Source of the DNA: Bacteroidaceae bacterium
GTDB lineage: Bacteria > Bacteroidota > Bacteroidia > Bacteroidales > Bacteroidaceae
DNA: 54,471 nt
Direction of reading: 5' to 3'
NCBI GenBank assembly: GCA_017442185.1
Contig: JAFSAT010000003.1
Span: 1 to 54,471 of the forward strand
The translations under genes were made by a program, and so were the position numbers. Shown piece after piece: positions 8,962-53,100 of this stretch (the first letter of the stretch is position 1; every line of letters begins with the position of its first letter). The notes under the pieces are model-generated. The model searched no databases. It saw only the letters and a list, made by a program, of their open reading frames with translations, and was not told the DNA's origin.

Positions 8962-9053
8962 AGAGACTGTTTAAATTTATATCGCCATTTTTTTATATAG
9001 CAAAATACTGTTTCTATTAAGAAAAGATTTATTAGAAATTTAAACAGCTTCTT
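8962..9053. repeat. Dispersed intergenic inverted-terminus repeat (subtype B, copy 1)
   Basis: Bounded by GAGACTGTTTAAATTTAT on the left and AAATTTAAACAGCTTCT on the right. Internal sequence (ATCGCC, then AAGAAAAGATTTATT) is shared with the copy at 17102-17235. It fills the space before trmD; no gene is present in 8810-9116. Confidence 0.8.
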
Positions 9054-9116
9054 AAACTGCTTAAAATTATTTATTACATATTGACTATTTTTTGAATTTA
9101 CAAAATTAAATTATAA

Positions 9117-9791
9117 ATGAGAATAGATATTATAACCACTTTTCCGGAGATGCTTGAGAGTTTTTTCAACACCTCTATTTTAGGACGTTCGCAACGTCAT
9201 GGATTTACAGAAATACATTTTCATAATTTACGAGATTATACAACAGACAAGCATCGCAAGACCGATGATTATCCCTTTGGAGGTTGTGCCGGCCTTGTTA
9301 TGAAAATTGAGCCCATTGACAATTGTATTTCGGCTCTGAAGGCTGAACGTCACTACGATGAGGTTATATACACATCTCCCGACGGCGAAGTATTTGACCA
9401 ACCAATGGCAAATTCACTCTCACTTAACAATAATCTCATATTTTTGTGCGGACATTATAAGGGAATAGATTACAGAATACGCGAACATTTGATAACCAAA
9501 GAAATAAGTATAGGAGACTATGTGCTAACGGGTGGCGAATTGGCGGTAGCGGTAATTTGCGATGCTGTCATTCGCCTTATTCCCGGAGTAATTTCCGACG
9601 AAACATCAGCTCTTTCCGATTCTTTTCAGGACAATCTGCTTGCTCCACCTGTATATACACGACCGGCCGAGTATAAAGGTTGGAGAGTACCGGATATATT
9701 ACTCTCGGGACACGAAGCAAAAATTCGTCAATGGGAATTGGAACAATCCTTGGAACGTACCAAGCGACTGCGCCCGGATATTCTTAAATAA
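9117..9791 (+). CDS. trmD: tRNA (guanine-N1-)-methyltransferase
   Basis: A 224-aa SPOUT-class enzyme that methylates G37 next to the anticodon in tRNAs reading CUN, CCN and CGG, preventing frameshifting. The protein starts [12 protein letters not shown]; the SAM-binding trefoil-knot signatures [12 protein letters not shown] and [13 protein letters not shown] are intact (about residues 117-145). It is usually part of the rpsP-rimM-trmD-rplS operon, but here it stands alone, as is common in Bacteroidales. The length is slightly short but complete. Confidence 0.96.
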
Positions 9792-9990
9792 GCAAAATTC
9801 GACGATTTACATATGCAGCAAAATCACTTGTAAACAAAAAAAATCGACCGACATAAATGTATACAAAAGTATATCACCATGTATACAACACGGCCATAGT
9901 TATATATACTCTTACTCAATTATACTCTATATTTAATTTACAAATATCCACAAATCGTCGCGAGAAAGAACTTTTTTATTAATAGGACAA
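9792..9990. other. Non-coding spacer downstream of trmD
   Basis: AT-rich intergenic DNA with a few GTATAC-containing segments (about 9858-9892) and CACTTGTAAAC near 9826. I see no gene, and only the terminator at 9996-10037 further on. Confidence 0.5.
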
Positions 9991-9995
9991 AAAAG

Positions 9996-10037
9996 AAGCA
10001 ACGCAAAAGAAGGTATCAGATTTCTTTTGCGTTGCTT
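9996..10037. terminator. Bidirectional terminator between trmD and pyrD
   Basis: AAGCAACGCAAAAGAA (9996-10011) pairs exactly with TTCTTTTGCGTTGCTT (10022-10037) around a 10-base loop. It serves the convergent trmD and pyrD genes. Confidence 0.85.
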
Positions 10038-10095
10038 TACTTTTATAAGTTTATTATCCGTCGGGAACCAATTAATTAAATGTTCCGAATATCTA

Positions 10096-11007
10096 TCAGA
10101 TTTCCAAAGCCCCTATCAGCTCGTCAATCGAGTTCATGCCATGACGTACAAGATAGTTCTCGATATAATCTACAATTTCGCCTGTTACGGCAGGATTCAT
10201 GAAATTAGCAGTTCCAACCTCAATGGCTGTTGCTCCTGCAAGCAAAAATTCCACAGCGTCGGCCCCGGTGGTTATTCCTCCTATTCCGACAACGGGAATC
10301 TTTACAGCCTTGGCAACCTGCCACACCATTCGCAAGGCGATGGGCTTTACAGCAGGGCCACTCATGCCACCGGTAATTGTAGAGAGTACGGGACGGCGTT
10401 TCTCCGCATCTATTGCCATTCCAAGCAGAGTGTTTATAAGCGAAACACTGTCGGCTCCGGCAGCCTCTACCGCACGAGCTATCTCTGTGATATCCGTAAC
10501 ATTAGGCGACAACTTAACAATCAATGTCTTGGGGTAGGCTTTACGTACGGCAGCAACCACCTCGGCAGCCGATTTTGGCTGAACACCGAAAGCCATACCT
10601 CCTTGCTTAACGTTTGGGCACGATATATTCAATTCTATGGCAGGAATATTATCAAGCGCTGCTACCTTTTCGGCACATACAACATAATCCTCGATACATG
10701 CACCCGATACATTGACAATTACATTTGTATCAAGGTTTTTTAACTGAGGATATATATTTTGCGCAAAATAGTCAACCCCTTTATTCTGCAAACCTACGGC
10801 ATTAAGCATGCCTTGAGGCGTTTCGGCACTGCGTGGGTAAGGGTTTCCTTCACGTGCATTGAGTGTTGTACCTTTTACTATGAAACCTCCTAATTTTTCA
10901 AGGTCTACAAAATCGGCAAATTCAAGGCCGTAACCAAACGTGCCCGAGGCCGTCAAAACCGGATTCTTTAAATTCAATCCGCCTATTTTTACATCTGTTT
11001 TTACCAT
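10096..11007 (-). CDS. pyrD: Dihydroorotate dehydrogenase B, catalytic subunit
   Basis: A 303-aa FMN-containing TIM-barrel enzyme that oxidises dihydroorotate to orotate in pyrimidine synthesis. FGYGLEF (about 24-30) and [11 protein letters not shown] (127-137) are present; Cys130 matches the catalytic cysteine of class 1 enzymes. ATG at 11007 is chosen: it overlaps the pyrK stop (11001) by seven bases, implying coupled translation, whereas a longer frame would start inside pyrK. With PyrK it forms the NAD-linked class 1B enzyme. The terminator at 9996-10037 ends the transcript. Confidence 0.95.
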
Positions 11008-11768
11008 TTCAGTTCGTCTATTGAAAATACGGGACCATCTGTACATACACACCTATGACCGCTTGTTGTATCCTCGACACAACACAGGCAGGCTCCAAGA
11101 CCGCAAGCCATGCGATTCTCAAGCGATGCTTCGCAGGGGATTGATTTTTCGCGAGCATAACGAGCAACAGCCATCATCATGGGCTTTGGGCCGCAAGTGT
11201 ATATATAATCGAATTTCTCATTTAATAAGGTATGATTTGTTACATATCCTTTCTCTCCAAGAGTGCCATCCTCTGTGGTATATTCCACACGACCAAGCGC
11301 CTCAAATTCGGTCTTACGATATATGTCTTTTGCCGAGCGGGCACCGATAAGTATGGTAAAGTCGCAACCTGAATTTCTTAATTCCTGCGCAAGGGCATAT
11401 AGTGGAGCAGAACCTACTCCGCCACCAACGAGCAACAAACGACGACTGTTGTCGACAGGCAGAGTAAAGCCGTTTCCCAACGGAAACAGAACATTTACCT
11501 TACTCCCTTCTGTAAGAGAAGCAAGCCAACGTGTACCGTCGCCAACAACCTGAACAAGGAAACCAATCTCGTTGCTTGCCGCATCGTAACTGTGTATAGA
11601 GATAGGACGACGCAACATCACTGTGGGTGTCTCATCCACACGCAGCTCTGCAAACTGACCGGGTCGGCACGGCGGAAGAGGTTTATCATCGGTCATAACC
11701 AACAACACACAAGATGCATTCAGTTTACGTACCTCTTTTACAGTCAAATCAATAAGATTTTTTTTCAT
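11001..11768 (-). CDS. pyrK: Dihydroorotate dehydrogenase B, electron-transfer subunit
   Basis: A 255-aa FAD/[2Fe-2S] protein that passes electrons from the PyrD flavin to NAD+. RRPISIHS (53-60) is the FAD-binding motif; [12 protein letters not shown] (112-123) and CGPKPMM (192-198) form the nucleotide-binding part. The cluster ligands are Cys222, Cys227, Cys230 and Cys242 near the C-terminus. It is the first gene of a two-gene operon with pyrD. Confidence 0.95.
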
Positions 11769-11919
11769 AGTAGAGTTATGTCTTTATCTGATGTTTTTTA
11801 GAAACTGCTTTATGAATTAAGGATTGTTTTATGATTGACTGATACGCAAAAAGTCACAAACAACCCCGAACAACGATGCGAATATAACTAAAAAACGGTG
11901 AGCAACCAACAGCTTCGGA

Positions 11920-12453
11920 CTATTTTTCGGGATAAAGTATTTCGTATGTCCCATCATTATAAAATACACGCACTTCTTTTATCTTGCGTGTCGTACTCTG
12001 TACGAGGCGTGTCTGCGTGTTTTTACGTTGCATCCGTTCACTCTGTTGTGTTTTGTTTACCATTGGTTTTTGTAGCTTTTGCGCATCTTCGTTAAGGGAG
12101 AATGAGCGCTGATTCTGCGACGAAACATCAAACGAAAGAGGTTCACGAGGCACCTCTTGAATATCCGGCGATTGATTAGCAGCAGTTGTTGCGAACAGCG
12201 AAGCGGCAGAATCGTCGGAATTATCGCGTAATACCGGAATATGTGGAGCCTCTCCGATTCCCAACATCAACCATCTGGCGTCTACATCCTGAAAAACTGC
12301 TGCAACCTTCTGCAAAATATCCAAACTCGGTTTATTTCTGCCGCCTAATATGTGAGACACCGATGCACGTGGGATTCCGGTCTTGTCTGCGAACTGCGAC
12401 AGGCTAAGCCCGCTGTTGTCTATTATATATTTAATACGTTCACGCTCATTCAT
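11920..12453 (-). CDS. XRE-family helix-turn-helix regulator
   Basis: A 177-aa protein. Residues about 6-65 form a Cro/C1-type HTH (LSLSQFADKTGIPRASVSHI then GGRNKPSLDILQKV). The middle (about 80-140) is polar and low-complexity, and the C-terminal ~25 residues (KIKEVRVFYNDGTYEIL) look like a short beta-rich domain. It resembles the single-HTH regulators common in Bacteroidales. It has its own promoter at 12503-12533 and sits beside an unusually long non-coding stretch rich in palindromes, which may be its operators. Targets are unknown. Confidence 0.85.
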   Translation of the reverse strand: MNERERIKYIIDNSGLSLSQFADKTGIPRASVSHILGGRNKPSLDILQKVAAVFQDVDARWLMLGIGEAPHIPVLRDNSDDSAASLFATTAANQSPDIQEVPREPLSFDVSSQNQRSFSLNEDAQKLQKPMVNKTQQSERMQRKNTQTRLVQSTTRKIKEVRVFYNDGTYEILYPEK

Positions 12454-13348
12454 AATATATACATTTTATCAATAATACATTTGTAAGCAACAATTACAGG
12501 TACAAATGTAGCAATAAATTTACATATTACAAATACACAATATAAACAAAAAAATCCCAATCACACAGAACATATAAACAAAGAGAATAACTGTATACAA
12601 AAATATAATCTAATTTACAAAAAGAATCAAGAAAATCATACGCTTACAAATTGTAAACAACAAGATTGAGCACCATTAAACAAACAACTTTAACTAAAAT
12701 AAATTTTATTTTGATTATTAAGTATTTAAATAACACAAAAGGCTGCTTTTACACCCCACACCGTCCCTTTATGCAATTTTTCACAACAAGCACCCACAAT
12801 CTACACTATTTTACTTTATCTACAATTAAAAAGATATTGATTTTTAATAAATTATCATATACAAATTAACAGTGAATAATTTTTGCATAAGACATTCTGA
12901 CACCTTGCTACCCTATTATAATATATTAACAATTTAAGTTTGTGTAAATTCAATTTACAAATCAACAAAACAAATCGCAACACAAATCACCACTCGAACA
13001 CAAAAAACACACACGCACACAACCCTGTTACAATATACATTTGTAGACACAAAGACACTACACAATTGACAATTGTGCAAACAGAAAAAAGATGAATAAA
13101 TTTATAAAAATGATAATTTGCAGCAAGAATACACTCTTCCAAGCAAGAAGAAGATGCTCGAAAATGTTGTTTTAAAACAATTCCGAAGTTAAATGAATAG
13201 AGATTCTAATTTTTCGGGCAGATTATAGAATTGTAAATTTTCAAACGATTCTGAGAGCAATAAAAACAGCGCAATACCCTATCACACAACGACTTATATA
13301 CATTTAGAAATAAAGCCGGCTGCCTTCAAATAGAAAAAACGAATAAAA
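12454..13348. other. 895-bp AT-rich non-coding region with repeated TTTACAAAT-type palindromes
   Basis: No convincing gene is seen; the only frame, near 12666-12869, lacks recognisable protein features. Three palindromes stand out: TTACAAATTGTAA (12644-12656), GTAAATTCAATTTAC (12944-12958) and CACAATTGACAATTGTG (13061-13077). TACATTTGTA occurs on both strands (12476-12485, 12501-12510, 13036-13045). The stretch 12960-13080 is strongly skewed to A and C on the plus strand. It could hold operators of the adjacent XRE regulator or an unannotated RNA. Confidence 0.55.
12503..12533 (-). promoter_or_regulatory. Promoter of the XRE regulator (TTTG-19-TACATTTG)
   Basis: On the minus strand TTTG (12530-12533) is followed after 19 bases by TACATTTG (12503-12510), an exact Bacteroidota consensus. 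The leader would be about 45 nt. Confidence 0.75.
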
Positions 13349-14362
13349 TCAGTGTAAAATTTTATAAATAAGTTCGCGCATAATTTCATAATCGGAAAGA
13401 GCAGCACCCTCTGCACCTTTGGACTGAGCATCGGCCAGACGTATAAGATGCAAAATCTCCATCACATGCATTGCTCGATAATTTCGCATAGCTTTAAGAT
13501 AATCTTCCACCCCCCAGGCCGACTTCAATCCCAAGAAAGCAGCAATGCCGCGTTCGGTTTTTTCGGGCGAGTAATAGGCCATCATCACATTTGAGAAAAA
13601 ATTGAACAACAAGGCAAGTGTCATCTGTATCGGATTCTTCTTTGGATTTTGAGCAAAATTATTTATGATACGGTTGGCCTTGTAAACATCTTTGTTCACT
13701 AAAGCATTCTGAAGTTCAAAATTATTAAATTCCTTGCTGATGCCAATATGTTCCTCGATAAGCTCGGGTGTAACTCTCTTTTCTCCATCCGACAACGCTA
13801 TTGATAATTTATCTATTTCGCTTGCTATACGACTAAGGTCGGCGCCAATAGATTCTGCAATCATAAGCACAGCTTTATTGTCGGCCACAAGAGATTTTTC
13901 TCGCATATATGAGGTTATAAAGCTCGGGAGACGTTCATCGCGCAGACGTTTGCTATCAAGCACCACCGCCATACGCTCAAGCTCTGCCACAATTTTTTTA
14001 CGTCTATCGAGAGAGCCGTTTTTATGCGCAAAGACAAGAATGGTTGAGGCCAACGGCATACGCAGATAGTTAATCAAGGCATCAATGTTTTTCATCATCT
14101 GAGCCTCTTTTACTATCACCACTTGATACTCTGACATCATTGGATAACGTCGTGCAGCAGAAATAACAGTTTCGATGTTTGTATCAAGTCCGTAATATAC
14201 GCTTAGGTTGAATTCCTGTTCAACCTCGTTAAGCACGTTACGTGCAATATAATCGGTAATGCGGTCGGTATAAAATCCCTCCTCACCCATAAGGTAATAG
14301 ACAGGGCGATACACTCTGTTTTTCAATTCGTCCATTATCGATTCGTACGTATATTTTGCCAT
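13349..14362 (-). CDS. holA: DNA polymerase III subunit delta
   Basis: A 337-aa clamp-loader subunit that opens the sliding clamp. YYLMGEEGFYTDRITDYI (22-39) is the typical N-terminal segment of HolA, followed by an AAA+-like domain lacking Walker motifs and a helical C-terminal collar domain (LLFNFFSNVMM region). Length matches the family. It is divergent from the HsdR_N-like gene; a minus-strand TATCTTTG (14419-14426) is a likely -7 element. Confidence 0.92.
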   Translation of the reverse strand: MAKYTYESIMDELKNRVYRPVYYLMGEEGFYTDRITDYIARNVLNEVEQEFNLSVYYGLDTNIETVISAARRYPMMSEYQVVIVKEAQMMKNIDALINYLRMPLASTILVFAHKNGSLDRRKKIVAELERMAVVLDSKRLRDERLPSFITSYMREKSLVADNKAVLMIAESIGADLSRIASEIDKLSIALSDGEKRVTPELIEEHIGISKEFNNFELQNALVNKDVYKANRIINNFAQNPKKNPIQMTLALLFNFFSNVMMAYYSPEKTERGIAAFLGLKSAWGVEDYLKAMRNYRAMHVMEILHLIRLADAQSKGAEGAALSDYEIMRELIYKILH

Positions 14363-14385
14363 AGTCTGTTTTTTATATATCTTTG
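14355..14385 (+). promoter_or_regulatory. Promoter TTTG-19-TATCTTTG for the HsdR_N-like gene
   Basis: TTTG (14355-14358) and TATCTTTG (14378-14385) are 19 bases apart on the plus strand. The -33 box lies inside the first codons of holA, so the two divergent promoters overlap. Confidence 0.65.
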
Positions 14386-14431
14386 CATTAATGTATATAC
14401 ATTTGCGAGCAACGTATGCAAAGATAATGAA

Positions 14432-14902
14432 ATGTTCCCGTTAAATCTGCCTGAATACGACATAAAAATAGCTGAGAAAGATGGTAAACCCACAATATTC
14501 GACAATCTGAGGCGATGTTATGTGGCGCTGACCCCTGAAGAGTGGGTGCGTCAACATTTTATACATTTCCTCACAGAGAAGCGAGGCTACCCACCAACCA
14601 TGATGGCAAACGAAGTGAGTCTTATGCTGAACAACACTCGCAGACGATGCGACACTGTTGTATACGACCGCACACTCTCGCCCCGTATGATTATTGAATA
14701 TAAAGCACCGACGGTAAAAATAACTCGCGAAGTATTTGACCAAATTTTGCGATACAACCTGGTGTTGCAAGTGGATTATCTTGTTGTGAGTAACGGTCTG
14801 CAACACTTTTGCTGTAAACCCGATTATGTTGCAGGCCAATGCACATTCCTCGACAACATACCCACATACAGCGAAGTTATATCGGCATTGCAACAAGAGT
14901 AA
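14432..14902 (+). CDS. Stand-alone type I restriction enzyme HsdR N-terminal-like protein
   Basis: A 156-aa cytoplasmic protein resembling the N-terminal nuclease domain of type I restriction subunit R. The core reads RRCDTVVYDR then MIIEYKAP (about 70-91), consistent with a D...ExK nuclease fold. VRQHFIHFLTEKRGYP (35-50) is a family-typical helix. There is no helicase part and no hsdM or hsdS nearby, so it is not a working type I system. Bacteroidales often carry this gene next to holA; the role is unknown, possibly DNA repair. Confidence 0.8.
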   Translation: MFPLNLPEYDIKIAEKDGKPTIFDNLRRCYVALTPEEWVRQHFIHFLTEKRGYPPTMMANEVSLMLNNTRRRCDTVVYDRTLSPRMIIEYKAPTVKITREVFDQILRYNLVLQVDYLVVSNGLQHFCCKPDYVAGQCTFLDNIPTYSEVISALQQE

Positions 14903-14967
14903 ACCATGGGCGATGAAGAATAAATGTCTCTAATCACTTCATCAATAATTTACCTAAGCAGTTTAAT

Positions 14968-15015
14968 AAAACAAGGCTCAACTTATTTTTTTTGCAATAA
15001 GTTGAGCCTTGTTTT
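14968..15015. terminator. Bidirectional terminator
   Basis: AAAACAAGGCTCAACTTATT (14968-14987) pairs perfectly with the segment 14996-15015 around an eight-base loop. It ends the HsdR_N-like transcript and, on the other strand, the tRNA-Ser transcript. Confidence 0.9.
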
Positions 15016-15016
15016 G

Positions 15017-15104
15017 CGGAAAGAGTGGGATTCAAACCCACGGTACGGCAAAGCCGTACGCCGGATTTCGAGTCCGGTCCATTCGATCACTCTGGCATCT
15101 TTCC
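15017..15104 (-). tRNA. tRNA-Ser (anticodon CGA)
   Basis: The minus strand folds as a class II tRNA: acceptor GGAAAGA/TCTTTCC, a long variable arm (GTACGGC/GCCGTAC), T arm GTGGG-TTTGAAT-CCCAC, discriminator G. The anticodon stem CCGGA/TCCGG frames the loop CTCGAAA, giving CGA at plus positions 15068-15070, which reads UCG. CCA is not encoded. Confidence 0.95.
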
Positions 15105-15119
15105 CTTAATAAATCTGTG

Positions 15120-15149
15120 CAAAGTTAGCAAAAAAATATTCCATCCAAA
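15120..15149 (-). promoter_or_regulatory. tRNA-Ser promoter (TTTG-18-TAACTTTG)
   Basis: Minus-strand TTTG (15146-15149) and TAACTTTG (15120-15127), 18 bases apart, lie 16 bases before the tRNA 5' end. Confidence 0.65.
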
Positions 15150-15220
15150 AGATATTCATTCTTTTTTTATACAAAATAATCCACTGAACAAAACAAAATA
15201 TGGCTACTGCCCGGCTTAAT

Positions 15221-17062: not shown

Positions 17063-17101
17063 CAAATATCTGCGCGAAGATAGTGATTTTTACACAACTA
17101 T

Positions 17102-17402
17102 AAGAAACTGTTTAAATTTATGTCCTTAGAAACTGCTTAAATTTATATCGCCCAATTTTTTATATTCAAAAATGGCGAAACAAACAACACAGTTTCTGTT
17201 AAGAAAAGATTTATTGGAAATTCAAACAGCTTCTAAATTTTCACAGGTCTTTTTTTAGGATTTTCTTCATTTGTTAAAGGCGCATAGCGAACCATGCAAC
17301 CGCAAAAAAAGAGAAAAACAGGGAAAACAGCATAAACAGGCAAGAAAAATTCACTCATAATGTAAACATAATAATTTAAAGAAATTTAAAAAGTCTCTAA
17401 GA
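17102..17402. repeat. Composite of two dispersed intergenic repeats (subtypes B and A)
   Basis: 17102-17235 is a subtype B copy (AAGAAACTGTTTAAATTTAT to AAATTCAAACAGCTTCT). 17222-17402 is a subtype A copy in the opposite orientation; read on the minus strand it runs from GAGACTTTTTAAATTTC to AATTTAGAAGCTGTTTGAA and contains the GCGGTTGCATGG hairpin. Together they fill 17063-17488; no gene is present there. Confidence 0.8.
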
Positions 17403-17488
17403 CAGAGCGAAATAAAGAAAGAAAAATTCTTATGAAAAAACAGAGACTTTTTAATTCACCATTGACTATTTTTTATTAAATTTGCTAC

Positions 17489-25351: not shown

Positions 25352-25542
25352 TAGAAGCAGTTTAAATTTCTTTCAAATATTATGTTTATATTGCGTATAA
25401 GCGGATTACACTTGTCTTTTTATGCTCTTTTTGCCTGTTTTTTTTAAAGGTTACACAGCCTGCCATGCACCCTTAAAATGAAATAACATTATTAGATAAG
25501 AACCATAAAAATTCCAATTACATAAATTTAAACAGCTTCTTA
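25352..25542. repeat. Dispersed intergenic repeat (subtype A, full copy)
   Basis: About 190 bp with ends AGAAGCAGTTTAAATTTC and AAATTTAAACAGCTTCT. The interior has TTTCAAATATTATG, ACACTTGTCTTTTTATGCTC and GGTTACACAGCC, shared with the copies near 42352 and 52980. It lies between glgB and the YhcH-like gene. Confidence 0.85.
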
Positions 25543-26035: not shown

Positions 26036-27265
26036 TTATTGTTTAACGTTCTTCTTTAACTGTCCGAGGACATATTCGCACTCTTTTATTATTGTGCCTG
26101 CGCTGTCTTTAACTACAAACAGCCCATTGCGCTGACCCTCGTAAAATGTTCCTTCGTAGCGGAGTCCGTCTTTATCTACTGCAACGCCTTTGCCGTGTTC
26201 GGCACCATTCTCAAACGAGCCGCGGTATTTAGTGCCGTTTACACGACGCAATATTCCCTCGCCATGCATCACTCCGTCTTCCCACTCTCCGTCGTAGACA
26301 TCGCCGTTGGCCCATGTGTATATTCCGTGTCCTGTGCAAATGTCATCTTCCCAATCTCCATCGTATGTTGCACCATTTTCAAAAAGCATTTTACCTTTGC
26401 CGCTACGCACTCCGTTCACAAAATCGCCATCATACACCGTTCCGGTTGTGCTTTTGTATACGCCTTTGCCATGCCATTCTCCTGCAAGATAGTTGCCTTC
26501 GTATACATCTCCGTTGGCAAAGGTATATTTTCCTTGTCCGTCGCGCACGTCATTCTTCCAATCCCCTTCGTAAACATCGCCATTTGCAAAGGTATACATG
26601 CCTTGTCCGTCGCGGACATTATTCTTCCATGTGCCAATGTATTTACTGTTATCGCTCCAGATGAATGTTCCCATGCCTTCGTGAACATCGTTGAGCCATT
26701 CACCCACGTATGACGAGCCGTCCGAATAGAAATAGCTGCCCGAGCCGCTGCGTTTGTCCTCGACCCATGAACCTACATAAAAGTCGCCATTGGGATATGT
26801 CATTTTACCGTAGCCCTGCTGATAATCGGCGTGCCAATTGCCATCGTAACAGCGTCCATCGACAAAGTAGCATATTCCTTTGCCATGTTGACGCCCTGCA
26901 TGAAATTCGCCCTCGTAGCGTTCGCCGTCGCTGAAGAGATACACCCCTTTACCCTGCATTTTGCCTTTTACGAAAGAACCCGTATAGACATTACCATTGG
27001 GGAATGTCATTTTCCCATTGCCATGCGGACGGCGCCCCTTCATTTCGCCAACATATAGCGAACCATCTTTAAGTTTGACCGAACGCACATTCTTGGCAAT
27101 CACCACTTTGGGGAGCTGTGCAGTGTTTTTCGATGTATAAATGCGTTCCACTGTTTCCAAACTGTCAGCATTGCTGCAGAATGGCAAAAAGGTGTTCGGA
27201 GCCACTCGGGCAATGGCACTGACTGTAACGAATGATATTATAAGTGTGAATATCTTGTGTCTCAT
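26036..27265 (-). CDS. Secreted MORN-repeat protein
   Basis: A 409-aa protein with a signal peptide (MRHKIFTLIISFVTVSAIA), then about a dozen tandem MORN-type units of 23 residues (pattern YxGxWxxGxxHGxGxxxxxxG; for example GEFHAGRQHGKGICYF, NVRDGQGKYTF). Two neighbouring units are nearly identical, as expected for recent duplication. The MORN module is often membrane-associated in eukaryotes; the bacterial function is unknown, and a periplasmic location is predicted here. The ATG at 27265 is chosen because a full promoter lies at 27422-27452. Confidence 0.85.
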   Translation of the reverse strand: MRHKIFTLIISFVTVSAIARVAPNTFLPFCSNADSLETVERIYTSKNTAQLPKVVIAKNVRSVKLKDGSLYVGEMKGRRPHGNGKMTFPNGNVYTGSFVKGKMQGKGVYLFSDGERYEGEFHAGRQHGKGICYFVDGRCYDGNWHADYQQGYGKMTYPNGDFYVGSWVEDKRSGSGSYFYSDGSSYVGEWLNDVHEGMGTFIWSDNSKYIGTWKNNVRDGQGMYTFANGDVYEGDWKNDVRDGQGKYTFANGDVYEGNYLAGEWHGKGVYKSTTGTVYDGDFVNGVRSGKGKMLFENGATYDGDWEDDICTGHGIYTWANGDVYDGEWEDGVMHGEGILRRVNGTKYRGSFENGAEHGKGVAVDKDGLRYEGTFYEGQRNGLFVVKDSAGTIIKECEYVLGQLKKNVKQ

Positions 27266-27421
27266 GTATAAACAAAAAACATAGTGTCGTGGAATATTCC
27301 TGCAACCTCTTTTAAGGCTGTTTAAGTATTCCCTGTTATTATAATTGTAAAGATAAAGAACAGGCGAAAAACAATAAATATTGCAGTTCAATCCTAAATT
27401 AGATATCTTCACGCTATACCG

Positions 27422-27452
27422 CAAAGATAACAAGAAGTTGGTAAAGGGCAAA
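27422..27452 (-). promoter_or_regulatory. MORN gene promoter (TTTG-19-TATCTTTG)
   Basis: Minus-strand TTTG (27449-27452) and TATCTTTG (27422-27429), 19 bases apart. It rules out a longer start for the MORN gene. Confidence 0.75.
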
Positions 27453-31997: not shown

Positions 31998-32359
31998 ATT
32001 CTGAAGCTGTTTAAATTTCTATTTAAAAATAAAAGCTGTTTAAAATTCCAATGTTTCTTGTTTCACAAACCGTCTGCATCCTTAAATATACAGCATGTAG
32101 CTACCTCGATAGATAATCAAACAGCATGTATTTGCTCAACAAAACCAAACGACATAAATCAAGCAGCCTATTATTACATTTTCTTTGTCATTCATCTAAA
32201 AACATAGATGCAAAGTTAATAATAAAAATCCAATTATAAGCCATGAATGAAAATTTAGCACAATTATATATAGGAATCATTTTCTTTTACGATATTATTA
32301 TATACCTTTACGGGAAATTATATACGGGAAATCATACAGCCACAATCAATTCACAGTCT
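31998..32359. other. Divergent intergenic region between PBP1A and pyrB
   Basis: No gene is seen. It holds partial dispersed repeats (31999-32050), a minus-strand -7 box for PBP1A (32211-32218), and a plus-strand box TACCTTTA (32303-32310) that could drive pyrB. A plus-strand reading frame in phase with pyrB begins at 32243, but its extra 39 residues are hydrophobic and unlike PyrB. Confidence 0.55.
32001..32050. repeat. Partial dispersed intergenic repeats (GAAGCTGTTTAAATTTC)
   Basis: Two partial copies of the left terminus in tandem (GAAGCTGTTTAAATTTC and AAAGCTGTTTAAAATTCC) directly upstream of the PBP1A start. Confidence 0.65.
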
Positions 32360-42263: not shown

Positions 42264-42425
42264 AATTCAGCTTCTTAAAATAGAATAATTCCGAAACTGT
42301 TTAACTGTAACAATGTATCAGGTGGCGTTAAAAAAACGGCAAAAATCCAGAAGCTGTTTAAATCTCTTTCAAATAGCATTATGAGCGAATTTCACTTGTA
42401 TTTTTATGCTCATATTTTTTAGTAA
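42264..42425. repeat. Dispersed intergenic repeat cluster (subtype A and fragments)
   Basis: ATTCAGCTTCTTA (42265-42277), GAAACTGTTTAACTG (about 42293) and a subtype A copy from AGAAGCTGTTTAAATCTC (about 42349) through ACTTGTATTTTTATGCTC (about 42411). It occupies the gap before the acyltransferase. Confidence 0.75.
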
Positions 42426-43537: not shown

Positions 43538-43562
43538 TATATATGCGCTCTATGGCTGCTTA

Positions 43563-44669
<1,107 letters not shown>

Positions 44670-44930
44670 TCAAACAATTATATAAGGTTGTTTAATTTCT
44701 ATTTTAGAGGGTGTCTATTCTTTTAGTTCTGTTTTATATTCATCGTGGCCTGTTTTTTACTCTATTTAAATAACAATGCTTCTGAGAATATATACAAGGA
44801 TTAGCCTGTGTAAAATTTAGTCGCGAAGATACGAAAATTACATTAAACAATATCTTTGGTAGAAGAAAAATATAAGACCTTTCTATTTTTTATCTTCAGT
44901 GAACGCCTCCGGTTGATACATTCATCATTA

Positions 44931-45806: not shown

Positions 45807-45827
45807 TCTGTACTATTTTACGGTGCG

Positions 45828-45859
45828 CGAAGATAGCATAAAAAACAGATAAGTGCAAA
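45828..45859 (-). promoter_or_regulatory. DUF5715 gene promoter (TTTG-20-TATCTTCG)
   Basis: Minus-strand TTTG (45856-45859) and TATCTTCG (45828-45835) are 20 bases apart, about 20 bp before the start codon. Confidence 0.7.
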
Positions 45860-45888
45860 CGCTGTACGCTGTTATTAAGCAACTGTTC

Positions 45889-47073: not shown

Positions 47074-47105
47074 ATAACTTTTAACTATTATTCAGTAATT
47101 ATTTT

Positions 47106-47166
47106 AAGAAGTCGTTTAAATATATGTCCTTGAAATTTTTATGGATTTTTTAAAACAGCTTCTAAA
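47106..47166. repeat. Dispersed intergenic repeat filling the hydG-hydF gap
   Basis: AGAAGTCGTTTAAATATATG at the left and TTTTAAAACAGCTTCTA at the right, with ATGTCCTT as in the copy at 17102. It makes up nearly all of the 94-bp spacer between hydG and hydF. Confidence 0.75.
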
Positions 47167-47167
47167 T

Positions 47168-48586
47168 TCAGAAACGGAAATCACTCTTTCCTTCATTTAT
47201 CGCAGCCAAGTATTTTCGAGCTGTGGAGCGTGCTTTCTCGTTTGGTATGTCAGTCAGAAGTTTTTCTATCATAGCTTCGCCTTTACGTTTAACCTCGGGC
47301 GAGGCATAATCTCTCATATACTCTTTCAGTGTCAGCAAGGCGTTTGGCAGACAGCAGTTTGCTATCTGTCCGTTCTTGAGCAGTGTCATAAATCGGTCAC
47401 CTGTGCGTCCTTCGCGGTAGCATGCAGTGCAGAAACTTGGTATATGGTCGAGGTCGAGCAGCCACTCCACTATTTCGTCGAGTGTGCGATGGTCGGCGAC
47501 ATCAAATTGAGCGGAGTTTTCTTCGGGAGCCTCATCGTGCATATATCCGCCCACACTTGTGCGTGACCCTCCGCTCATCTGCGAAACGCCCAATTCCAAA
47601 AGCTTTGCACGGCTTTTTTGACTTTCGCGTGTGGAAATTATCATTCCTGTGTATGGTACAGCTATACGTATTATGGCAACTATTCGATAGAACACATCAT
47701 CGGGAACAGCATTTTTAAAGTCGGCAGTATCAATATCATCAGCCATGCACAGCCTTGGAACGCTTATTGTATGCGGCCCCACTCCATAGGTTGCTTCAAG
47801 GTGCTCGGCGTGCATTAAAAGACCTGTAAAATCGTAACGATATGTTTCAAGTCCGAAAAGCACGCCAATCCCTACATCGTCGATACCTCCCTGCATGGCA
47901 CGGTCCATAGCCTCGGTATGATAAGCATAGTCGCTCTTGGGGCCTGTGGGATGCAGCATCTGATAATTCTCCTTGTTATATGTCTCTTGAAAGAGAATAT
48001 ATGTGCCTATGCCCGCATCATGCAGACGGCGATAGTTCTCGACAGTGGTAGCGGCTATGTTTACGTTTACACGACGTATGGCGCCGTTTTTGTGTTTTAT
48101 ACTGTATATTGTTTTTATGCTTTCGAGTATATACTCTATTGGGTTATGCAGCGGATGCTCACCTGCTTCAAGAGCCAGGCGCTTGTGCCCCATGTCCTGA
48201 AGCGCCATCACCTCGTTGCGTATCTCGTCTTGCGTAAGTTTTTTGCGTCTGATGCTCTTGTTCTTTGCATGATAGGGACAATATACACAACCATTTATGC
48301 AGTAGTTCGACAGATAAAGTGGTGCAAACATCACTATGCGGTTGCCATAGAAACGATGCTTTATTTCGCGTGCAAGTGCATACATCTCTTCGACAAGCTC
48401 CGTGTCGGTACACTCTAACAGCACGGCAGCTTCGCGATGTGTAAGTCCTTTGCATGCACGTGCTTTTTCAAGAATTTTCTTCACAAGTTCACGATCGTTG
48501 CGGTGTTCAGCCGCATATTCGATAGTGCTGCGTATTTCGCTGTCGCTTATGAATTCTTCGGCAATTTTGGATTTTACGTTATACAT
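47168..48586 (-). CDS. hydG: [FeFe]-hydrogenase maturase, tyrosine lyase
   Basis: A 472-aa radical SAM enzyme that cleaves tyrosine to give the CO and CN ligands of the H-cluster. Cys96, Cys100 and Cys103 (CINGCVYC) bind the radical SAM cluster, and the auxiliary cluster motif CX2CX22C is Cys386, Cys389 and Cys412. The ATG at 48586 overlaps the hydE stop by 8 bp and implies coupling; an ATG 45 bases upstream is an alternative inside hydE. Member of the hydE-hydG-hydF operon. Confidence 0.97.
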   Translation of the reverse strand: MYNVKSKIAEEFISDSEIRSTIEYAAEHRNDRELVKKILEKARACKGLTHREAAVLLECTDTELVEEMYALAREIKHRFYGNRIVMFAPLYLSNYCINGCVYCPYHAKNKSIRRKKLTQDEIRNEVMALQDMGHKRLALEAGEHPLHNPIEYILESIKTIYSIKHKNGAIRRVNVNIAATTVENYRRLHDAGIGTYILFQETYNKENYQMLHPTGPKSDYAYHTEAMDRAMQGGIDDVGIGVLFGLETYRYDFTGLLMHAEHLEATYGVGPHTISVPRLCMADDIDTADFKNAVPDDVFYRIVAIIRIAVPYTGMIISTRESQKSRAKLLELGVSQMSGGSRTSVGGYMHDEAPEENSAQFDVADHRTLDEIVEWLLDLDHIPSFCTACYREGRTGDRFMTLLKNGQIANCCLPNALLTLKEYMRDYASPEVKRKGEAMIEKLLTDIPNEKARSTARKYLAAINEGKSDFRF

Positions 48587-49658
48587 TTGCTTCTGATGTT
48601 TTACTGTGTTCAACATAATCGCCGCGACCATAATCTATATAATGACCAATGGCTTTTAATTTATTTTCAAGCTCAATCAGGTTTTGCGCCGACTCGGAAC
48701 CGTAGCTTTTTTTATTATTATAAATGGAATACATTTCACGCACTCTAAAAGGCGACAAATTTGGCATAACCACATTGGCTCCGGCAAGCACAGCCTGTTC
48801 CATTCCTTCGGGATGCAGTGAGGCAAGCGCTGTGGTGGCAGGAATCAATGCATCGGGAAAGCGCAAACGCAACAAAGATACAACAAGAATTGTTAAATCG
48901 GGCGATCCCGGAGGAAAATCGGCCATCGGTGTTCCCGATGCAGGAATAAAAGGGCCTGTTCCTATCATCTGCGGATTAAGTTCTTCAAGGAAAAGAATAT
49001 CATCTATAATATTGTCAATAGTCTGCCATGGAGAACCTATCATCATTCCGCTACCTGTTTGAAAACCCAATCTCTTGAGCGTAAACAGACAGTGACGCCG
49101 TTCGGCAGCACTCATCGCAGAGGGATGCAAACGGGCATAATGTTCATCGTCGCGTGTTTCGTGGCGCAAAAGATAGCGGTCGGCACCGGCATCAAGAAAC
49201 ATACGATAGGCCTCTGTGCTCCTCTCACCCACAGAGAGAGTCACAGCCTTTTGCGGAAATTCTTTTTTTATGGAGCGTACAACATCGGCCATCCAAGCAT
49301 CATTCTGCGCAGGGTCTTCGCCACCCTGCAGCACAAAAGTGTTAAAGCCCAGGGATGCTCCCTCGCGACAGCAATCCAAAATCTGTTCTTTGCTCAATCG
49401 GTAACGCCTTGCCTCTCTATTGGCACAACGCAAGCCGCAGTAATTGCAATTATTGCGACAGTATGAACTAATCTCAATAAGCCCACGCACAAAGACGCCA
49501 CGTCCGAAGCGCAGCTCCTTAACCTCGGCAGCACGTTGCATAAGCATCATTCGGCTCTCTTCGTCTCCCATTGTCAAAAGCGACCTCCACTCATTGCGCT
49601 CAATGGAATATCCGCCCGACAACTTATCTATCAGATTCAAAAGGTTTACATTGCTCAT
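48579..49658 (-). CDS. hydE: [FeFe]-hydrogenase maturase HydE
   Basis: A 359-aa radical SAM enzyme needed to build the dithiomethylamine-bridged diiron subcluster. Cys67, Cys71 and Cys74 (CRNNCNYC) bind the SAM-activating cluster. GFNTFVLQGGEDP and RHETRDDEHYARLHPS are typical HydE segments. It is the first gene of the maturation operon and divergent from the hydrogenase; a minus-strand -7 box TAATTTTG (49998-50005) would give a ~340-nt leader. Confidence 0.96.
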   Translation of the reverse strand: MSNVNLLNLIDKLSGGYSIERNEWRSLLTMGDEESRMMLMQRAAEVKELRFGRGVFVRGLIEISSYCRNNCNYCGLRCANREARRYRLSKEQILDCCREGASLGFNTFVLQGGEDPAQNDAWMADVVRSIKKEFPQKAVTLSVGERSTEAYRMFLDAGADRYLLRHETRDDEHYARLHPSAMSAAERRHCLFTLKRLGFQTGSGMMIGSPWQTIDNIIDDILFLEELNPQMIGTGPFIPASGTPMADFPPGSPDLTILVVSLLRLRFPDALIPATTALASLHPEGMEQAVLAGANVVMPNLSPFRVREMYSIYNNKKSYGSESAQNLIELENKLKAIGHYIDYGRGDYVEHSKTSEANV

Positions 49659-49687
49659 ATTAAAACATTTGCCGACAATATATTTTG

Positions 49688-49857
49688 TAGCAGTTTAAAT
49701 TTTCTATCAAAATTGTTTTTACATTATCATGCTCATTTTTGATCGTTTTTCCCTTTCTTGCGCTCACATAGTCTTTTATATGCCCTTAGAGGATGAACAA
49801 ACACTCTAAACCGGAAACTACAAAATATCCAAGAATAGGAATTTAAGCAGTTTCTTA
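49688..49857. repeat. Dispersed intergenic repeat (plus-oriented copy)
   Basis: AGCAGTTTAAATTTTC on the left, TTTAAGCAGTTTCTTA on the right, with TCATGCTCATTTTTGATCG and GCTCACATAG inside. It lies in the leader of the hydE operon. Confidence 0.75.
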
Positions 49858-49983
49858 CTTGAAACTATCAAACGCACATCGCAAATAAAGCATCGGGCAT
49901 AAAAAAAGAATCAGCCATTGTTGAATATAAAACATAAAACAGCCTCATAATAATAATTTTGATGAAAATTTAAACAGCATATT
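49838..49983. repeat. Dispersed intergenic repeat (minus-oriented copy)
   Basis: Read on the minus strand it runs from GCTGTTTAAATTTTCATC through TTTTTTATGCCCGATGC to AAGAAACTGCTTAAATTCC, overlapping the right end of the previous copy. The two copies form a large inverted pair that fills the hydE-hydA divergent region; no gene is present there. Confidence 0.7.
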
Positions 49984-50071
49984 AAAACTTTCTTCCGCAA
50001 AATTACAAAATTTACAGCTTTTTCTATATTTTTACGCCGTCTTTTAAGAAACAAAAATAACACAAACATAT

Positions 50072-51511
50072 ATGGCATACAATAACAACGTAATGTTCGT
50101 AAGATACAATCTTCTTACTGAACTTGTGAAGATGTGGAAAGAAGATACTCTGGCCGATAAAATAGACCACATGATTATCGAGAGGTATCCTCGCAAAAGA
50201 AATCCGAAAGGACGTTGCTGCATATACAAAGAGCGTGCAGTGATGAAATATAAAACAATGGCCATGCTGGGATTCAACATGGAGGATGAGCGCGACGAAA
50301 CAGACACCCTTGGCAGCTACGTTGAGCGTATGATGGAGCGCAACATGCCCGACAACGAGAGAGGCATTCTCAGCGTAATGGACGAAGCATGCTCATCGTG
50401 CGTAAAGAAGAACTACGAGATTACCGACCTTTGTCGCGGTTGCGTTGCACGCCCATGCTACACAAACTGTCCCAAAGATGCCATCTCCTACGATAGCAAC
50501 GGCAAAGCCCACATCGACCACGAAAAATGCATCAGTTGCGGCAAATGCCACCAAGCCTGTCCCTACCACGCAATTGTGTATATTCCGGTACCATGCGAGG
50601 AGTCTTGCCCCGTAAAGGCAATCTCCAAGGACGAATATGGCGTGGAGCATATCGACCCAAAGAAGTGCATATATTGCGGAAAATGTCTTAACGCATGCCC
50701 ATTCGGCGCAATCTTCGACCAATGCACAGTGTTCGACGTGCTCAAACGCATAAGAGCAGGCAAAAAGGTAATAGCAATGGTAGCCCCGTCGGTGTTGGCA
50801 CAATTCGGAAAGCCCATCGAACAAGTATTGGGAGCATTCAAAGCAGCAGGATTCACAGCTGTCATTGAGGTTGCTTACGGCGCCGAAGAAACCACACGCC
50901 GCGAATCGGCAGAATTTAAAGAACGAATGGAAGAGGGCGAACCTTTCATGACCACAAGTTGCTGTCCTGCCTACGTAAACCTTGCACGCAAACATATCCC
51001 CGACCTTGTAAAATATGTATCCACAACAGCATCTCCAATGGTATACACCGCACAGTATGCAAGAGAGAAATATCCCGACGGAGTAAACGTATTCATATCG
51101 CCCTGCGCATCCAAAAAGGCCGAATGTCGTGAGCACGATAGCGTAGACTTCGTGTGGACATTCCGCGAGGTTGAAGCCGTATTTGCAGGAATGGGCATAA
51201 ACATAGACGAGTGCGAGCCATACACTCCCGCTGAAAGTGCCGGCAAAGATGCACACGGCTTTGCAAAAACAGGCGGCGTGTTTACAGCAGTTAAAAATCT
51301 GCTCGACGAGCCCAATCTCGAAGGTCTTGTCATTGCCGACATTAACAAAAAGAACATAGCCCTGCTGCGCGCCTATGCAAAAACCGGCAAATGCCCCGGC
51401 AAGATGGTAGAGGTAATGTCCTGTCCCGGCGGTTGCATCACCGGCCCGTGCTCATGCAGCGACAATGCCGAAGCACTTCGTCGTTTTGAAGCTGAGATGA
51501 AAAAGAAATAA
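50072..51511 (+). CDS. Monomeric [FeFe] hydrogenase (ferredoxin-type N-terminus)
   Basis: A 479-aa hydrogenase that interconverts protons and H2 at the H-cluster. The three signatures are complete: L1 TSCCPAY (295-301; Cys297 would be the proton-transfer cysteine and Cys298 a ligand), L2 SPCASKKAE (343-351), L3 EVMSCPGGCITG (447-458). The N-terminal half has ferredoxin cysteine sets at 121-133, 153-163 and 199-209 plus Cys107, Cys110, Cys175 and Cys179, so about three to four [4Fe-4S] clusters. The TSCCPAY/SPC forms suggest the poorly studied group B type, likely ferredoxin-linked. No HydB/HydC subunits are next to it. It is divergent from hydEGF. Confidence 0.93.
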   Translation: MAYNNNVMFVRYNLLTELVKMWKEDTLADKIDHMIIERYPRKRNPKGRCCIYKERAVMKYKTMAMLGFNMEDERDETDTLGSYVERMMERNMPDNERGILSVMDEACSSCVKKNYEITDLCRGCVARPCYTNCPKDAISYDSNGKAHIDHEKCISCGKCHQACPYHAIVYIPVPCEESCPVKAISKDEYGVEHIDPKKCIYCGKCLNACPFGAIFDQCTVFDVLKRIRAGKKVIAMVAPSVLAQFGKPIEQVLGAFKAAGFTAVIEVAYGAEETTRRESAEFKERMEEGEPFMTTSCCPAYVNLARKHIPDLVKYVSTTASPMVYTAQYAREKYPDGVNVFISPCASKKAECREHDSVDFVWTFREVEAVFAGMGINIDECEPYTPAESAGKDAHGFAKTGGVFTAVKNLLDEPNLEGLVIADINKKNIALLRAYAKTGKCPGKMVEVMSCPGGCITGPCSCSDNAEALRRFEAEMKKK

Positions 51512-51566
51512 AAGAACACATCAACAGCTGACAACAGATATTCAGCGCAACGGAAACTGTAACGAC

Positions 51567-51610
51567 AAAAAAATGCTTTTCCCGAATATTAATAGGAAAA
51601 GCATTTTTTT
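51567..51610 (+). terminator. Terminator after the hydrogenase gene
   Basis: The stem AAAAAAATGCTTTTCC (51567-51582) pairs with GGAAAAGCATTTTTTT (51595-51610), ending in a T-run. Confidence 0.85.
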
Positions 51611-51612
51611 GT

Positions 51613-51740
51613 TAGAAACTGTTTAATTTTTATTTCGGAATTACTTGAGAACTGTTTTAGAGTATATTTTCTTTGTTATATTGCAGTGAATAGCAAGCTA
51701 TTTCCAAAAGATAACAAAGAAAATATGCCTGAAACAGACT
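51613..51740. repeat. Dispersed intergenic repeat with 16-bp inverted repeat
   Basis: Starts TTAGAAACTGTTTAATTTTT and ends near CCTGAAACAGACTC. Inside, ATATTTTCTTTGTTAT (51664-51679) is an exact inverse of ATAACAAAGAAAATAT (51711-51726). No gene is seen in 51512-51946. Confidence 0.7.
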
Positions 51741-51910
51741 CAAAGAAGCCGAAACAAAGCCCTTAATTCAGTGAGCTACAAAATCAATTCCCCAATATAA
51801 GCCAAGATAGCGTTTGGTGATTGCTATTCCTAATTGTGTATTCAAATTTTAATAAACCATATATTTTGAAAAATATTTGAGTTGTTTGTATTTTTTGATG
51901 TTTTTCATTA

Positions 51911-51918
51911 TATCTTTG
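51911..51918 (+). promoter_or_regulatory. -7 element (TATCTTTG) before the GHKL/STAS pair
   Basis: TATCTTTG lies about 30 bp before the GHKL gene; a TTTG is 22 bases upstream, slightly beyond the usual gap. Confidence 0.55.
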
Positions 51919-51946
51919 CAGTATAAGTATTTGTTATACATTTGGT

Positions 51947-52600
51947 ATGAACATATCTGTACTCATAAAACAGTATTTCTCATCAATAAGTGATGATATT
52001 ACAATAGATGTTTTTGATGAAAAGAACATCTACGATGTATATCAACGCGTTGTTGGTGTGCTTACACAGTATATTGATATTGAAACGACTGTGTTGCAAG
52101 CTATGAGTTATTGTTTTTATGAAATTTTGGATAATGTGCTAACCCATTCCGGGAAAGAACTTGGTACAGTTCTCACTCACTACGATTCTACAAACCATGT
52201 TCTAAGCTTCTTGGTGGCAGACGATGGCATTGGTGTACAGGCATCACTCTCGGAAAATACAGAATATGCCGGAATATCTGAACCTGATGCGTTGAAAATA
52301 TGTATTAAGGATGCCATTACTGACGGTAAAGGTATGGGATTCGGATTGTACTCAACATCGCTGCTTGCAAGGGATGCAGGATTGGTTTTTGAAGTCCGTT
52401 CCGGTAAACACACTATGCAAGTACAGGATGGTGTTGAAGAAACAAAAGATAGTGACTTTTGGCAAGGCACAATAGTCTATCTACAGCTTCATACAAACAA
52501 GGAGATTAATCCGGCTGACGTTGTTGCCAATCGTGCTAATGTGGCTGCACAATATAATGAAACATTCTTGAATGACAATGAATTGACTGAGCTATGGTAA
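51947..52600 (+). CDS. GHKL-type ATP-binding protein
   Basis: A 217-aa soluble protein with a histidine-kinase-like ATPase fold. The N box has Glu59 and Asn63 (EILDNVLTHS), the G1 box is ADDGIGV (91-97) and the G2 box is GKGMGFGLYS (127-136). There is no phosphorylatable His domain or transmembrane region, so it is like anti-sigma/serine-kinase GHKL proteins rather than a sensor kinase. It overlaps the downstream STAS-like gene by seven bases, implying a coupled pair. Confidence 0.8.
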   Translation: MNISVLIKQYFSSISDDITIDVFDEKNIYDVYQRVVGVLTQYIDIETTVLQAMSYCFYEILDNVLTHSGKELGTVLTHYDSTNHVLSFLVADDGIGVQASLSENTEYAGISEPDALKICIKDAITDGKGMGFGLYSTSLLARDAGLVFEVRSGKHTMQVQDGVEETKDSDFWQGTIVYLQLHTNKEINPADVVANRANVAAQYNETFLNDNELTELW

Positions 52601-52884
52601 CTTTTAATTTTAGAGAATACGGTGAGAATTTAGGTACACGCCCTTTGGGTAAGCGTGTGCGTGAATCTTTGCAGCCATTGATTGAGCAGAATGACCTTGT
52701 TGTGCTAGACTTCACTGGTGTAAATGTTGTAAGCAATTCATTCGCCGATGAGTGTATTGCAAAATTATTGCTGGTTATGTCGTTGGCAGAACTAAAGAGC
52801 CGCACAACTTTCCGTGGACTGAATCCAATAGCATCGGAAAGCGTACTGACAGCACTCCGTCGCAGACATCTTACAATAGCATAG
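52594..52884 (+). CDS. STAS-like domain protein (DUF4325)
   Basis: A 96-aa single-domain protein. A beta-alpha STAS-like core is visible: LVVLDFTGVNVVSNSFADEC (35-54) is the DUF4325 signature, where Ser/Asn residues replace the phosphorylated serine motif of anti-anti-sigma factors. The start ATGG overlaps the GHKL gene stop. With the GHKL ATPase it may act as an antagonist or partner-switch; targets are not visible. Confidence 0.82.
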   Translation: MVTFNFREYGENLGTRPLGKRVRESLQPLIEQNDLVVLDFTGVNVVSNSFADECIAKLLLVMSLAELKSRTTFRGLNPIASESVLTALRRRHLTIA

Positions 52885-52906
52885 CCCAAAGTTGCTGAAT
52901 GAAATA

Positions 52907-52955
52907 AAAATCCCCCCGGAACCGCCTATATAACAAGGTAGCCCCGGGGGGATTT
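52907..52955 (+). terminator. GC-rich terminator after the GHKL/STAS pair
   Basis: AAAATCCCCCCGG (52907-52919) pairs with CCGGGGGGATTT (52944-52955) around a long interior region, followed by a short T-rich stretch. Confidence 0.75.
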
Positions 52956-52969
52956 GTGTTTAGTCGTAT

Positions 52970-53100
52970 GAGCAAATATTTTGTTTGCTTTTAATGCTCT
53001 TTTTGCGGTTACATAGTGGGAACTGTGTAACCGCAAAAAAATGAATAAATATTCTAAAAAAGGTCTATAAAAATTTTAAGAATATAAGACGCAGCTTAAA
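52970..53100. repeat. Dispersed intergenic repeat (subtype A) with GCGGTTAC hairpin
   Basis: Contains TATGAGCAAATATTTTG, TTTAATGCTCTTTTTGCGG, and the stem-loop 53000-53040 (GCGGTTACATAGT-GGG-AACTGTGTAACCGC), followed by AAAAAATGAATAAAT and AAAAAAGGTCTATAAAAATTT as in the copy at 17222-17402. It separates the STAS gene from nadC. Confidence 0.75.
53000..53040. other. Stem-loop in the repeat element
   Basis: A near-perfect stem (13 bp plus flanking T/A pairs) with a GGG loop. It is followed by A, not T, on either strand, so it is not a standard terminator. Confidence 0.65.

Follow-up and report, generated by a model that had tools for sequence, protein, structure and literature searches.

The intergenic repeats with inverted ends that recur through a 54,471-nt stretch of DNA from an uncultured member of the Bacteroidaceae (hereafter the window; source genome 2.36 Mb, 94%-complete) are miniature inverted-repeat transposable elements (MITEs) of the IS5 type, an identification that is close to settled. 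In the overall explanation, to which a probability of about 93% is assigned, an autonomous insertion sequence (IS) of ~0.9 kb with similar 16-bp ends would supply an IS5-family transposase in trans. The insertion target would be TNA, in most cases TTA or TAA, and this triplet would be duplicated. Full-length copies (A, B and C2; about 155-194 bp) would each fold into a single long, imperfect hairpin whose tip is conserved, and the ~105-bp type B would be a deletion derivative that has lost the tip and is still mobile. The ends, the length of the duplication, a nested insertion, the absence of the element in relatives at two sites, and a matching IS in another genus of the family were observed directly. 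An earlier note on this DNA had proposed a "MITE or REP-like element", and this is now resolved in favor of a MITE; the IS5 source, a third subtype and a hairpin tip common to other genera are points beyond that note. It had also suggested a genome scan for copies, a search for target-site duplications, a comparison of empty sites in relatives and a search for an IS with the same ends, and each of these gave a positive result.

The end sequence AGAARCTGTTTAAATT occurs in 97 exact copies in the genome, and its reversed control in none. Within the window, the end motif AGAAGCTGTTTAAATT has 18 matches at up to three mismatches, compared with 1.1 expected and a maximum of 5 in 100 shuffles. At least one match to the end motif was found in 29 of 36 congeners and in none of 24 genomes of other families. 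For the own-genome set, ends were paired at up to three mismatches within 73 territories around exact end matches, comprising 285,713 bases including the window. The set contains 65 complete elements and 66 unpaired ends. The complete copies possess 16-bp terminal inverted repeats, GAARCTGTTTAAATTT, and at 41-194 bp they are too short for a transposase gene. The earlier note had distinguished interior subtypes A and B, both of which are real, but the pair is incomplete. Besides A (18 copies) and B (16) there are a short form of B of ~105 bp, which is B without its middle (15), a subtype C (7) and nine untyped copies. Because types A and B are both present in two congeners (G006 and G029), their split probably predates these species.

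The flanks of the elements carry the signature of a 3-bp duplication. With element boundaries set at GAARCTG.../...CAGYTTC, identical triplets stand on both sides of 30 of the 65 own copies, against a permutation mean of 18.5 when the right flanks are shuffled (p = 0.0012), and TNA, mostly TTA or TAA, is found on both sides of 48. By type, exact duplications accompany 11/15 short B, 8/16 B, 8/18 A and 3/7 C copies. Additionally, 40 full-length copies from four congeners were picked from the best-scoring hits, and among the 38 with both flanks readable, 29 have an exact duplication and 37 have TNA on both sides (p = 0.0002). The median identity of these copies within a genome is 92-98% (97% among 20 copies of one genome), which indicates recent activity there.

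Comparison with relatives indicates that the element is absent at both sites compared. At one of them, in the own genome, a short B copy flanked by TAA at either end is 41 bp 3' of a slyD-like gene (by its tail) and 5 bp 5' of aroC, both names being tentative and taken from motifs rather than a family search. The gap before aroC is thus 151 bp (41 + 105 + 5), whereas 18 of 19 congener loci of this junction have a gap of 7-80 bp with no element end, and one is unreadable. Because the intergenic DNA has diverged, empty sites could not be aligned there to the exact nucleotide. For the copy on the trmD side, at 8963-9051 of the window, 80 named loci yielded no counterpart; in one of these, L159, a lone end-like match (three mismatches) occurs at a similar distance.

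IS5-family elements as the probable transposase source

The link to the IS5 family was found in a congener (G020), where an exact end flanked by TTA precedes a broken IS5-family transposase gene by 115 bp (NF033580, 131.7 bits; this model was run on the one protein). The first 21 bases of this IS, compared by eye, are those of type-C copies. Among 393 genomes of the order, 21 have relatives of the open 154 residues of its transposase, and the window's genome is not one of these. Ten of 30 fetched loci, those with frames of at least 255 aa, were examined for ends with at least 10 of 16 bases alike. All ten possess a MITE-like end pair, 880-1078 bp apart, a size similar to the 860-991 bp given for Amoebophilus IS5 elements (PMC3196728). 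All nine with readable flanks have TNA on both sides, and the triplet is identical in six. Of 80 control loci, by comparison, 13 have an end pair of some kind, in no case with TNA on both sides. IS5 subgroups differ in target, and some use TNA, in agreement with the flanks of these nine relatives.

The clearest candidate for a helper and its MITE comes from another genus of the family (G301). Its 899-bp IS contains an open 257-aa transposase gene (L123:1391-2289), and the left end of this IS, GAAACTGTTTTGAATT, is identical to both ends of the genome's own 192-bp MITEs. Eighteen of these MITEs were found by pattern, and all 10 that were fetched are 192 bp long, have perfect ends and are flanked by an exactly duplicated TNA triplet. 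The distance between the IS5 element and one 192-bp copy that shares its end (L123:2340-2531) is ~50 bp. An IS of this type may mobilize the MITE, presumably by cut-and-paste chemistry. At L121 (G012:C49), a broken IS5-family transposase was seen between diverged ends, GAATCTGTTTTGAAATG, with a complete MITE ~0.7 kb away.

Genes matching PF01609 were also considered as a source and rejected. Matches occur in 17 of 44 genus genomes, and exact ends were found at two of the 29 loci, L098 and L112. At L098 the MITE-like end pair lies away from the PF01609 match, and L112 is the IS itself.

Several observations weigh against the overall explanation. The G020 IS has no recognizable right end, and the right end of the G301 IS differs by two bases and its flanks are TAA/TGA. 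As the earlier note had stated, the window contains no transposase with matching ends, and none was found in the 94%-complete genome either, in which there are no PF13340 matches, no PF13586 matches and no relatives of the G020 transposase; its one partial PF01609 match lacks a MITE-like end. Within the genus, PF13340 is present in only 2 of 44 genomes, apparently broken in both, and PF13586 in none of the 44. In the overall explanation, the helper IS would have been lost from the window's genome. Metagenome-assembled genomes (MAGs) tend to lose multi-copy IS, however, so its absence is a weak counterpoint. Several element copies were also seen at contig ends in G005, G012, G015, G026 and G066, and it is probable that these MITEs break the MAG assemblies. 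As to the target, that of bacterial IS5 is given in one account as ANT, not TNA (PMC4482050). Moreover, 35 of the 65 own copies have no exact duplication, and the nine untyped copies, none of which has one, may be chance pairings. Finally, 13 of the 48 TNA pairs are inverted, mostly TTA/TAA. Such inverted flanks could have arisen by recombination between copies in opposite orientation or by misassembly across near-identical copies. TTA/TAA flank pairs were also seen in congeners, and inverted, non-direct flanks were noted at L041:1534-1574 (GACTTA...TAAGTC), L052:1412-1483 (AATTCA...TGAATT) and L057:1526-1588 (TCA...TGA).

Among known systems, the PIF/Harbinger elements are two-protein systems and, unlike the MITEs described here, eukaryotic. 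They and related eukaryotic elements are described as having IS5-related transposases and a 3-bp duplication (PMC4482050, PMC2213677). The closest comparison is with the MITEs of Porphyromonas gingivalis, namely BrickBuilt, MITEPgRS/464, MITE239 and MITE700, which are reported to be IS5-ended (PMC4596501). Like the present elements, they occur in the Bacteroidales and their ends match an IS5-family IS (ISPg4 and MITEPgRS share the left end GAGACTGTTGCA), and BrickBuilt is described as containing no transposase remnant, as is the case here. In contrast, their ends are given as 11-12 bp (22 for MITE239) rather than 16 bp, the duplications of BrickBuilt as irregular rather than 3-bp TNA, and BrickBuilt and 464/PgRS as containing internal tandem repeats. 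That account also describes no interior motif across genera comparable to the hairpin tip shared here (PMC4596501). The Cardinium element MITECca01 is similar in being short (~240 bp), abundant (169 copies) and mostly intergenic, but it is attributed to the IS982 family and reported as unique to one strain (PMC9769881). The IS5-family IS themselves (NF033580; PF13340 and PF01609) share similar terminal repeats and TNA flanks with the MITEs, but none of the five that were tested contains the hairpin core. The main text of a 2024 review of prokaryotic MITEs contains no word beginning with "Bacteroid" (PMC10969869). In the literature searched, which excluded subscription papers and ISfinder, no report of these elements was found, nor any text-string match to the tip or to a 13-base piece of the end motif.

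Hairpin folding, location and alternative explanations

The alternative that survives best, although it is improbable, is that selection keeps the elements as regulatory RNA or terminator-like hairpins, a REP-like function for which mobility would be only the origin. Whole elements do fold strongly, with z scores from -4.9 to -16.7 overall, -5.3 for the RNA of one type A and -6.7 for the DNA of one type B. In type B, paired changes are more numerous than in controls (shuffled or slid) by four of five measures, including 32 covarying cells against 12.3 and 9 pairs against 5.8 in the shuffled control. Conservation of the tip in 13 chosen representatives and the position of copies just 5' of trmD and aroC would also be consistent with such a role. 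However, the number of further pair types in type B is not raised (30 vs. 31.8 shuffled), and change on both sides of a pair is seen in only 1 of 20 consensus pairs of type A and in 4 of 27 of type B. When the type B structure is taken from one member, 9 of 58 pairs have two-sided change, which partly reflects one split of two sub-lineages. Furthermore, template switching in palindromes can give paired changes without selection. At neither of the two orthologous sites tested is the copy conserved, and 15 of the 65 are short and lack the tip altogether. No Rfam family matches the elements above threshold: the search of the window returned two tRNAs only, and that of 12 loci gave five hits, which fell in microRNA and snoRNA families and were all under the gathering score.

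The location of the elements also bears on this question. Open reading frames (ORFs) of at least 80 aa, called mechanically, cover 84% of the own-genome stretches, yet 62 of the 65 element midpoints fall outside them. The earlier note's statement that all copies are between genes is therefore correct except for three. This intergenic accumulation would be expected if insertions in genes are lost. The 55 gaps holding elements comprise 33 tandem, 16 divergent and 6 convergent gene pairs, compared with 20, 5 and 9 among 34 element-free gaps of at least 60 bp. Since tandem and divergent gaps are upstream of a gene start, 49 of the 55 agree with the same note's placement of copies in 5' leaders, but the excess over element-free gaps is not significant and at most suggestive (Fisher p = 0.08). 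Nor is there an orientation bias in tandem gaps, with 12 sense and 11 antisense copies. Together, these two results provide no positive support for a regulatory role.

A second alternative, that the repeats are REP/REPIN elements (repetitive extragenic palindromes) moved by a RAYT (Y1) transposase, shares with the IS5-type explanation an intergenic, palindromic and high-copy element, but it is very improbable. In place of palindromes of 20-40 bp without target duplication, the elements possess IS5-like 16-bp inverted ends, 3-bp duplications and lengths of up to 194 bp; RAYT genes were not searched. Y1 transposases are not known to generate a target duplication. Chance similarity of A/T-rich intergenic DNA, which could be invoked because the end motif is itself A/T-rich, is refuted by the 97-to-0 genome count, is opposed also by the duplications and profile matches, and has a negligible probability.

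Copies in the window

All nine places listed in the earlier note hold element sequence by profile hidden Markov model (HMM), with several coordinates corrected. In contrast, the weak partial matches reported near 11798, 27308, 39684 and 44684 yielded no end-motif or profile hit (E up to 1). The training alignments of the subtype profiles included the copies at 8963, 17129 and 25354, which applies to the scores given for them here. The complete short type-B copy of 89 bp on the plus strand at 8963..9051 (58.6 bits) has TTA at 8960-8962 and 9052-9054 and lies 65 bp upstream of the start codon of trmD (PF01746). The nested insertion is on the plus strand at 17104..17397, where a complete type-A element flanked by TAA at either end is interrupted by a short type-B copy of 105 bp (17129..17233, plus strand, 88 bits), whose flanks, TTA and TAA, are not identical. 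Once the insert is removed, profile A is matched over all 189 positions with 116 bits. A complete type-A copy of 186 bp on the minus strand (25354..25539, 140.9 bits), with TTA on both sides, lies 5' of an alpha-amylase-like gene (PF00128 and PF02922).

The remaining copies are decayed to various degrees. A degenerate type-B copy on the minus strand (32003..32167, 23.1 bits, E 1.5e-6) is longer than first listed. It is followed by a truncated type-A copy with a single end (42350..42413, minus strand, 34.8 bits) and an internally deleted type-A copy of 55 bp with TAA on both sides (47108..47162, plus strand, 19.1 bits). A type-A copy with one mutated end (49687..49854, minus strand, 57.7 bits) adjoins a weak type-B-like remnant (49872..49981, plus strand, 19.3 bits, E 2e-5), which retains one end at 49966-49981. 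The type-C copy at 51615..51754 (60 bits) has lost its right end and is palindromic, scoring equally on both strands so that no strand is assigned, and the type-A copy at 52956..53088 (minus strand, 47.5 bits) has decayed ends. Two type-C interior fragments (124..267, plus strand, 27.6 and 26.6 bits) lie within an 86-bp tandem repeat. This repeat, at 86-257, has units 98% identical, as if a decayed MITE had been tandemly duplicated. Elsewhere, a 65-bp direct repeat is present three times at 26289-26629 inside an ORF on the minus strand (26036-27451) and probably encodes repeated protein motifs.

Of the nine trmD loci nearest to that of the window (88-92% identity), seven belong to MAGs titled Bacteroidaceae bacterium that came from deer, yak, sheep and goat (rectum, colon or cecum); the other two carry the title Bacteroidales bacterium. 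With regard to carriage by phages or plasmids, one type-A query had no blastn match to either, and three queries from other genera, searched against plasmids alone, had none. The end motif has ten hits in viral contigs. Of the tip there are three viral-contig hits, none bounded by inverted ends within the range searched, and these were set aside as chance.

The hairpin tip and its carriers

The tip, ATAGCNNGCTAT, is present in 13 chosen elements that represent 10 genera and six end sequences. In an alignment of these representatives, which were hand-picked by the analyst, the best 14-column window falls on the tip with 95.6% identity, compared with 77.5% for the best window elsewhere and a median of 61%, and the tip is predicted to be an apical stem-loop in 13/13. 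Around the tip (e.g., L331, L329), GGGA and GACC would permit tandem G-A mismatches beside the stem; such mismatches are typical of structured RNA or DNA hairpins. Tip frequency can be judged free of search bias only in the own genome, where copies were found by their ends alone. Among the 32 copies of at least 150 bp, 24 have the tip near the center with no more than two mismatches, compared with 6.7% of shuffled interiors that have it anywhere. A search for the tip in the same genome gave 13 strand hits at 9 places (control, 1). Tip copies independent of elements were considered and rejected, because eight of the nine places are in listed elements and the ninth matches profile A with 58 bits.

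Beyond the genus, the type-B model has matches in at least 23 of 121 genomes and at least 12 of 30 genera of the family, the own genus included, with weak hits in genera g28 and g212. Twenty loci from eight other genera hold elements of 171-203 bp with several kinds of ends, and the exact tip is present in 20/20, although the model or pattern used to find these elements contained the tip, so that they are uninformative on how often it is absent. Their ends were chosen in a first pass that favored matching TNA flanks and again by motif alone, with motifs derived from the same loci. By motif alone, 12 elements end in GA..TGTTT, 11 of which have a 3-bp duplication. Seven end in GG..GGTTCT (L323-L328 and L334, from genera g223, g219 and g215); five of these have a 4-bp duplication (TTAC, ATTA, TGAA, TTTT, TTAA) and two a 3-bp one, so that another transposase is probably involved; no IS for it was found. 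The remaining one of the 20 has a GTAGGTG end, and neither of the two GTAGGTG-ended copies seen overall has a duplication. A named carrier with such ends is Prevotellamassilia timonensis Marseille-P2831T (L178:5567-5747), which lacks an exact duplication. Of 393 genomes of the order, 4 contain a strict tip pattern, including two (G209 and G302) from a second family, f60. Nine of the 11 f60 loci look like elements of 165-175 bp when the flanks guide the choice of ends; by end motif alone, an end pair is present in 3, accompanied by a 3-bp duplication in 2 of them, and missing from 8.

Transposition does not need the tip, since the share of duplications is highest in the short copies that lack it. 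The tip is also absent from the five IS tested, and so is the hairpin core, the best matches to which have 2-3 mismatches. Most likely, the tip serves the hairpin itself, through a cruciform or transcript folding, and not recognition by the transposase.

These observations permit a tentative reading, somewhat less probable than its opposite, that the elements represent a long-lived Bacteroidales MITE lineage with exchangeable ends whose tip, given that short copies move without it, would have its own function in the host or in the hairpin. The tip core ATAGCGGGCTAT and its neighbors (e.g., AGG before, TGAC after) are kept in 11 genera of two families. The terminal repeats of the carriers differ (GAARCTGTTTAAATTT, GAARCTGTTTTGAATT, GAGCCTGTTTAAATTT, GGTAGGTTCTAAAAAT, GGGTGGTTCTAAAAAT and GTAGGTGTTCAAAATT), and the duplication varies with them, 3-bp TNA for GA..TGTTT and 4 bp in 5/7 for GG. 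At the same tentative level, the cargo might be the lineage, its ends being exchanged to suit the transposase at hand. The relatives were selected by their tip, the representatives are few and there is no tree, so common descent with drifting ends may account for the GA..TGTTT kinds. For GGTAGGTTCTAAAAAT compared with GAAGCTGTTTAAATTT, exchange is the simpler account, because a near-identical center of ~30 bp is combined with a different duplication length. One cargo carried by different ends is best regarded as a lead.

Overall, the identification as IS5-type MITEs explains a large intergenic repeat family of an uncultured genus of the herbivore gut. It also serves as a warning that the DNA just 5' of housekeeping genes such as trmD and aroC may hold mobile hairpins. 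A persistent cargo with changing ends and transposase would be unlike the usual MITE, which is a decayed copy of one IS. If the association of the tip with different ends is confirmed, these elements would amount to a natural experiment that shows what selection acts on within a MITE.

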